This document shows positions 35,965 to 50,905 of a stretch of DNA of 64,000 nt, piece after piece. Source of the stretch: Alphaproteobacteria bacterium (GTDB taxonomy: Bacteria > Pseudomonadota > Alphaproteobacteria > Micavibrionales > UBA2020). Below the pieces are notes generated by a model, which was given only the letters and a program-made list of their open reading frames with translations, was not told the origin of the DNA and searched no databases. The stretch's first letter is position 1, and each line of letters opens with the position of its first letter. The position numbers and the translations under genes are program-made. The DNA lies in NCBI GenBank assembly GCA_025934695.1, contig JAICWS010000002.1, forward strand, positions 1,035,043 through 1,099,042. Direction: 5' to 3'.

Positions 35965-36076
35965 TTCCCGGCGAAAGCCGGGGTCTGGCATATAGCAGCA
36001 TGCGCGGGTGGTGCCGTTTAAAACGGCTTCCGCTTGTCCTGCCGCACCTTTTTAGACCCCGGCGTTCGCCGGGGTT
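35965..36076. repeat. nested palindromic repeat upstream of gpt
   Basis: The left arm (35965-35986, CCCGGCgaaaGCCGGGG) and right arm (36054-36076, CCCCGGCgttcgCCGGGG) are inverted copies. The centre holds a 15-base palindrome GCCGTTTAAAACGGC (36013-36027). The element lies directly before the ribosome site of gpt and so forms part of its leader or promoter. Confidence 0.75.
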
Positions 36077-39018: not shown

Positions 39019-39192
39019 CGCGGAGCCCTGGAGAACCGGAGCCTTTCTGAAGCGCGCGCAGCGCATTTATCCCGAGTGGGGGAATTCACACGAAGTTACG
39101 AAGATACGAAGTGCATTTGCCGCAGAAATTCTTCGTTACTTGGTAACTTCGTGTGAAATCCGGTGATGGGATGATTGCGCTGCGCGCGCAGT
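39018..39192. repeat. nested inverted repeat, copy 1
   Basis: The outer part begins ACGCGGAGCCCTGGAG directly at the antiporter stop and ends GCGCTGCGCGCGCAG directly at the cdd stop. The inner arms (39085-39111 and 39131-39157, 27 bp each, three mismatches) contain three CGAAG-type units: TTCACACGAAGTTACGAAG. It separates two convergent genes. Confidence 0.85.
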
Positions 39193-39694: not shown

Positions 39695-39917
39695 ACGGAT
39701 TTTTACCCGGAAACCCGGAGTCTTTCCCGCTTCGCGCGAAGCGCATTAATCCCGAGTGGGGAAATTCACACGGAGTTACGGAGTAACGGAGCGCTATGGC
39801 CGCCGCGAGCCTCCGTTACTCCGTAACTCCGTGTGAAATCCGATAATAGGGATTAATGCGCTGCGCGCGGCATTCAGAACGGACTCCGGACCTCCGGGTC
39901 TCCGCGTGAAAATCCGT
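39695..39917. repeat. nested inverted repeat, copy 2 (most regular)
   Basis: The inner arms 39765-39791 and 39811-39837 are a perfect 27-bp inverted repeat with three CGGAG units. Around them GCGCATTAATCCC (left) pairs with GGGATTAATGCGC (right). The outer arms run from ACGGATTTTTACCC to TCCGCGTGAAAATCCGT and again carry CCGGAG units. The right edge ends on the first base of the prmB stop codon. Confidence 0.9.
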
Positions 39918-50680: not shown

Positions 50681-50905
50681 AGGATTTAACGCGGAGACCC
50701 GGAGGTGCGGAGTTCCTTCCTGACTTCGCGCGAAGCGCATTCGTCTATATTGTAAGTTTAACGCGAAGGCCGAAGTCCCGAAGAGGCCGCGCAGCCGAAC
50801 CGTTTCTTCGGAGCTTCGGGTCTTCGCGTTAAATTCCCATTTGGGTCAATTGCGCTGCGCGCGGTTTTAGAAAGACTCCGGACCTCCGGGTCTCCGGGTT
50901 AAAAT
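50681..50905. repeat. nested inverted repeat, copy 3
   Basis: The outer arms begin TTTAACGCGGAGACCCGGAGGTGCGGAG and end CTCCGGACCTCCGGGTCTCCGGGTTAAAATTCC. The CTTCGCGCGAAGCGC and GCGCTGCGCGCG blocks lie as in copies 1 and 2. The inner arms (50757-50785 and 50804-50833) use CGAAG units (AACGCGAAGGCCGAAGTCCCGAAG). The right edge contains the last codons and stop of alkB. Confidence 0.88.

Follow-up and report, generated by a model that had tools for sequence, protein, structure and literature searches.

REP/REPIN elements, MITEs and intervening sequences (IVS) are among the described systems closest to the palindromes considered here. In the sections of PMC2817692 and PMC3116915 that deal with REP and REPIN elements, the linked RAYT gene lies between inverted repeats, gene and repeats coevolve, and the number of repeats tracks the gene; a GTAG or CGTC tag adjoining the REP is described in PMC3733652. 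MITEs are short elements with terminal inverted repeats, insertion polymorphism and gene-less copies that share their ends with a gene-carrying element. The IVS of Coxiella, as described in a section of PMC4990558, has three tandem heptamers upstream of an S23 ORF that looks dispensable.

The elements described here share features with each of these systems. Like REPINs, they are dispersed intergenic hairpin palindromes made of two inverted repeats (45 pairs at 38 loci), with a linked gene between matching repeats, coevolution of the two, and a copy number that tracks the presence of the gene. They differ from the REPIN/RAYT system in having arms of three spaced units apiece, a linked GxxExxY protein that has the PD-(D/E)XK fold and is not a Y1/HUH transposase, and gene-carrying elements that can occur several to a genome (up to 6 matches). 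As with MITEs, the elements are short, have terminal inverted repeats and are polymorphic for insertion (congeners G124–G127 are without copies 1 and 2), and a gene-carrying element of the same genome has its ends in common with gene-less copies; here, however, the terminal repeats are multi-unit arms. As in IVS with S23/IVP, a small ORF lies within long inverted arms of short tandem units, but the protein belongs to another family (a PF05635 search for S23/IVP genes gave 0 matches in the source genome), and the elements lie between genes, unlike the IVS of the published section, which lie in 23S rRNA. We consider it probable (roughly 0.6) that the palindromes are MITE- or REPIN-like elements that a PD-(D/E)XK nuclease either mobilises or moves with. 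On the best reading, the three palindromes of the window are gene-less, non-autonomous members of a family whose gene-carrying members encode GxxExxY between inverted arms.

Three nested palindromes

The window, which is the whole 64,000-nucleotide stretch of DNA analysed, has three nested palindromes at roughly the positions given by an earlier sequence-only reading (Table 1). Their arms are built from three short units, CGGAG or CGAAG, with an 8-nt period, and both these triple units and the accompanying CGCGAAGCGC / GCGCTGCGCGCG block were found as that reading had described them. So was the perfect 27-bp inner inverted repeat of copy 2, which is the sole perfect stem of at least 16 bp with a loop of at most 60 in the 64-kb window. 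The layered plan proposed for all three copies holds insofar as nested arms exist, but it is incomplete in each: the left outer arm of copy 2 is degenerate, the left inner arm of copy 3 is one base short, and copy 1 runs directly up to the stop codon of an adjacent gene in reverse orientation, which leaves it with no right outer arm. Measured against dinucleotide shuffles, folding energies correspond to z values of −9.3, −12.2 and −11.5 for copies 1, 2 and 3, and for each copy 0 of 200 shuffles fold as well.

Table 1. Positions of arms and blocks in the three palindromes of the window.
Feature	Position	Strand	Remarks
Copy 1 left outer arm	39021-39041	+	CGGAG-CCC-TGGAG-AAC-CGGAG
Copy 1 left GCGC block	39054-39073	+	
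Copy 1 left inner arm	39085-39111	+	three CGAAG units, TA-spacer class
Copy 1 right inner arm	39131-39157	-	
Copy 1 right GCGC block	39168-39187	-	
Copy 2 left outer arm	39695-39720	+	degenerate; 88% complementary to right arm
Copy 2 left block	39733-39753	+	GCGCATTAATCCC
Copy 2 left inner arm	39765-39791	+	TTCACACGGAGTTACGGAGTAACGGAG; identical to left arm of GxxExxY gene element L052
Copy 2 right inner arm	39811-39837	-	perfect complement of left inner arm
Copy 2 right GCGC block	39849-39869	-	
Copy 2 right outer arm	39884-39917	-	CGGAG units, C-spacer class
Copy 3 left outer arm	50685-50713	+	CGGAG, C-spacer class
Copy 3 left GCGC block	50725-50741	+	by eye
Copy 3 left inner arm	50757-50783	+	CGAAG, C-spacer class, one base missing; by eye
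Copy 3 right inner arm	50806-50833	-	
Copy 3 right GCGC block	50848-50863	-	
Copy 3 right outer arm	50875-50903	-	

A dispersed family with four subfamilies

Three copies proved to be a large undercount. In the source genome (G000; 4,126,303 bases in 7 contigs), the pattern CGRAGNNNCGRAGNNNCGRAG with at most one mismatch has 108 matches (48 + 60) and a control pattern read backwards has 7, while exact triple-unit matches number 90 versus 0 for controls. Forty stretches, some of them picked for a gene or block instead, were fetched and hold 100 of the 108 listed matches. From 38 of the fetched loci we obtained 104 arms and 45 inverted pairs, with at most two mismatches allowed. Full-length copies stop at the arms and have unrelated flanks, as in copy 3 and the locus L066, which are 86.6% identical over 239 bp. 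No target-site duplication was seen by eye at element edges, and the congeners are too diverged in intergenic DNA to define one.

The unit states of the 104 arms are AAA in 50, GGG in 44 and mixed in 10. As the sequence-only reading had noticed from three copies, both arms have changed together: the majority type is concordant in 43 of the 45 inverted pairs. Unit (G or A) and spacer (TA or C) together define four subfamilies, with 10 pairs of type G/TA, 22 of A/TA, 8 of G/C and 5 of A/C. Within an element, unit-state likeness is 0.889, versus 0.898 between elements of one subclass; the corresponding values for spacers are 0.781 and 0.717. Since arms paired in one element resemble each other hardly more than arms drawn from different elements of one subclass do, concordance in this genome mostly reflects the four subfamilies and not repair of individual copies, and neither the ongoing gene conversion nor the selection for a cruciform that had been suggested for each copy is needed. 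What stands from that proposal is that the repeats form a dispersed, mobile-like family in which the two arms agree. The conditions under which it would have fallen do not hold, since copies are numerous and the congener G123 carries them too.

All 8 fully nested pairs, a small sample, have a G-type outer pair, and in none of them do the outer and inner pairs share a class. One element, L072, has a CGCCAAG-type palindrome inside its CGGAG arms, whereas the similar CGGAG element L065 is without it.

Other triplet-type palindromes are nested with CGGAG/CGAAG arms in L072 (578-800) and L074 (530-740), the CGCCAAG type lying inside and the CACGAAT type outside.

GxxExxY genes between matching arms

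GxxExxY genes commonly have odd, repeat-derived ends, and were therefore tested for arms. The source genome has two such genes (TIGR04256/PF13366, PD-(D/E)XK nuclease fold), which score 148 and 140.7 bits with TIGR04256 (cut-off 35) and 146.5 and 134.8 bits with PF13366 (cut-off 22). The linked genes are thus members of PDDEXK_3/GxxExxY, far above both cut-offs. Gene 1 sits between CGGAG arms, the left of which is identical to the inner arm of copy 2 at 27 of 27 positions, and its element lies directly upstream of a gene that resembles pyruvate dehydrogenase E1-beta (Biotin_lipoyl + Transket_pyr). Gene 2 sits between CACRRAT arms of the form CACAGATGGACACAGATGAACACGGAT (L054). Because the CACRRAT triplet family has 29 matches in the source genome versus 0 for controls, gene 2 too has gene-less partners.

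The family names state neither a role nor a link to repeats, whereas here the genes are tied to repeats. In open-licence PMC literature we found no description linking GxxExxY, PDDEXK_3, PF13366 or TIGR04256 to repeats; in the part of PMC8934634 that mentions it, GxxExxY appears merely as a gene label. Exact repeat words sought in the open-licence literature gave hits that, among the matches listed, are all unrelated by title.

Presence and absence in congeners

Copies 1 and 2 are absent from the orthologous sites of G124–G127. The gene-1 element is missing there as well: its site measures 17–21 nt in these four congeners versus 523 in the source genome. A gene between arms, gene-less copies with the identical arm type and insertion polymorphism occur together in one family, whose copies have spread as wholes. 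A clean empty site for gene 2 was not found, since relatives carry other sequence there. In a side observation, relatives hold differing stretches of about 460–700 nt at the gene-2 site (L355–L359), which marks it as variable.

In the congener G123, the copy-1 site holds a different palindrome, of the CCCCGGCG...CGCCGGGG-like kind, and at its copy-2 site a CGGAG-armed element with another interior is truncated by the contig end. At the gene-1 site, six of six CGGAG units are kept while every one of the four spacers differs, on both arms; the GxxExxY proteins of G123 (L345) and the source genome (L040) are identical at 74 of 120 positions (62%), versus 227 of 250 (91%) for the neighbouring protein. 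Either the gene and its arms diverge rapidly and together at this site, or two related elements were inserted separately. In the five G123 stretches that were read, CGGAG triplets carry spacers of class C, as do the arms of G123's own gene; one degenerate CGAAG-like arm is the exception.

Three genomes of the genus carry the gene and have 90, 15 and 2 triplet sites, and the three that lack it have 0. Across the order (142 genomes), PF13366 is present in 56, exact CGRAG triplets in 40 and both in 32. With counts that include the arms of the GxxExxY genes themselves, any exact CGRAG triplet occurs in 32 of 56 genomes with PF13366 versus 8 of 86 without (Fisher 7e-10, ignoring kinship), and at least four occur in 18 of 56 versus 1 of 86 (kinship again ignored). 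Some genomes without a detected gene still have palindromes, such as G102 with 8 matches. Among the 56 gene-bearing genomes there is a weak unit-specific link between the arm type of the gene and the gene-less copies, with p = 0.018 for CCAAG extras against CCAAG-armed genes and p = 0.065 for CGRAG extras against CGRAG-armed genes, the unit classes of the genes having been set by eye.

Arms of GxxExxY genes across phyla

Scanning GTDB genomes with alignment A2 gave at least 80 named GxxExxY loci. Taking the 99th percentile of 390 control windows as the threshold, inverted multi-unit arms are present at 53 of 78 testable loci from 13 phyla, among the matches listed. The same 390-window score is reached in the order by 70 of 89 testable gene copies (94 loci fetched from 111 PF13366 match rows). 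No arm at the 99% threshold was found at 25 of the 78 named loci, among the matches listed, and at 19 of the 89 loci of the order. The usual arms have at least three units, such as CACNNAG, CGCNNAG or CACNNAT, spaced 8–12 nt apart. Under a stricter test of each flank, triples stand on both sides in 41 of 107 loci versus 1 of 400 control windows. GxxExxY and inverted arms are thus associated.

In 37 of these 41 loci the left unit equals the right, whereas 2000 mispairings averaged 8.5 such loci and never gave more than 18. Mapped onto a tree of the 41 proteins, unit type requires 12 changes versus 21.8 after shuffling, with 0 of 200 shuffles as low. The arm unit differs by lineage, matches within an element and is distributed in line with the GxxExxY protein tree. 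Between proteins with half of their residues different, the unit is retained six times over, and we therefore infer that the arm units are under selection. Concerted change of the arms, which within the source genome reflects subfamilies, reappears between gene-carrying elements of different lineages and at the gene-1 site of G123. Same-unit extras near the genes at 26 loci of other phyla are not significantly enriched (5 observed versus a shuffle mean of 2.8).

Some GxxExxY reading frames (L187, L194, L210 and others) begin inside an arm, so that arm DNA is read as GxxExxY protein, as in the stretch NHRDTETQRD.

In a survey of relatives with automatically chosen ORFs, some of which may be wrong, S23/IVP loci have inverted multi-unit arms in 17 of 24 cases at the 99% level or above (591 control windows). 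The PF05635 loci L141–L170 of these relatives have inverted arms of 3–4 short units with a period of about 7–8 nt, for example TTGCAAG, CTCCGAAT and TTGGAAG, around a protein unrelated to GxxExxY.

Fold and conservation of the GxxExxY protein

For the Rhodospirillales homologue L212, AlphaFold2 gave a model with a pLDDT of 94 (alignment A3, 58 sequences). All 58 sequences share D70, E80, K82 and Q94. An invariant D...ExK set is the established pattern expected of an active PD-(D/E)XK nuclease, and the invariance of D70, E80 and K82 suggests selection for nuclease activity; catalysis is thus predicted for the family. With VIA-align, the top structural match is Cas4 SSO0001 (Z 9.3, rmsd 4.3, 101 residues) and the Hjc Holliday junction resolvase scores Z 6.8; many other matches have Z below 8, and may reflect a common arrangement alone. 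Foldseek alone gave no match at E ≤ 0.001, and a solved structural relative sought by sequence was not found. Three GxxExxY proteins have no PHROGs or PADLOC match, and identification as a known phage or defence protein was rejected.

Alternative explanations

The alternative that survives best holds that the arms are a mobile unit moved by a host or other pathway, and that GxxExxY, like S23/IVP, is a passenger or homing parasite in the loop. The S23/IVP genes of relatives, with arms of similar plan, indicate that such arms are not unique to GxxExxY; the Coxiella IVS, with its heptamers and dispensable-looking ORF in the described section (PMC4990558), agrees with such a role, and the arms hold several kinds of interior, namely a gene, a CCCCGACG-type palindrome, a GCGC block or another triplet palindrome. 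Nonetheless, we regard it as rather doubtful, since unit type tracks the GxxExxY protein tree, the number of palindromes depends on the presence of the gene, the invariance of D70, E80 and K82 in all 58 sequences suggests selection for activity, and the source genome has no S23 gene.

Retention of the palindromes as RNA or DNA structures, whether terminators, mRNA stabilisers or nucleoid sites that spread by chance duplication, would fit their intergenic positions and very stable hairpins. It appears improbable, given that four congeners dispense with copies 1 and 2, that identical arm types flank genes, and that the spacers of the two arms are often mismatched whereas the unit cores are preserved (an alignment-dependent estimate). 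No Rfam family matches the window between 35500 and 52000, and a known RNA family was rejected on that ground.

Classical REP/REPIN elements mobilised by a RAYT (Y1 HUH) transposase, a link raised in the sequence-only reading, have a similar plan of intergenic inverted repeats in many copies, with a coevolving linked gene between repeats in the sections of PMC2817692 and PMC3116915 cited above. The linked gene here has a different fold, and a search for the RAYT/Y1 family PF01797 gave 0 matches in the source genome versus matches in 5 of 14 control genomes. This explanation is therefore very improbable, and is refuted for the source genome barring a RAYT too divergent for PF01797. Finally, unrelated local palindromes or decaying relics of no common origin, a reading to which degenerate copies such as copy 1, short of an arm, might lend some colour, are refuted by the copy number (108 versus 7 control matches) and by full-length identity of up to 86.6%.

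Proposed mechanism and implications

If the palindromes are elements mobilised by or with the nuclease, the GxxExxY protein might bind the units on both arms, draw the arms together, and cut or nick at the units. Further copies of the element would then arise between other genes, in many cases inside other palindromes, and gene-less copies would use the protein in trans. Candidate chemistries include hairpin excision, double-strand-break copying and homing. The giant nested form would arise when one palindrome comes to sit inside another of a different subclass, through insertion into, or close to the centre of, the resident palindrome; the nested composite would then also spread as one unit.

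These observations suggest that the GxxExxY family drives a widespread, so far unnamed kind of mobile DNA. In a broader form of this proposal, on which we would give even odds, GxxExxY proteins would be the nucleases that mobilise palindromic elements of a phylum-wide class, in which each lineage reads its own triple unit and moves both gene-carrying and gene-less copies. They would then be a PD-(D/E)XK counterpart of RAYT/REPIN, and might form a branch within some larger group to which S23/IVS elements also belong. The association offers a large protein family, named by its motif alone, a putative role and a substrate that can be tested, and would account for triplet repeats that are common between genes in many phyla (CACAGAG, CACGAAG, CGCCAAG, CACGGAT and others). 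Its natural pairings of protein and unit also allow a study of how a small nuclease recognises a 5–7 bp word that is repeated. If the enzyme is the mobiliser, the spread of miniature elements gains a nuclease fold absent from RAYT and DDE elements.

A further palindrome, CCCCGGCG...CGCCGGGG, lies at 36057-36075 of the window and has many copies in the source genome and its congeners. Some CGGAG-armed elements (L056, L058, L073 and L076) have a palindrome resembling it as their interior.
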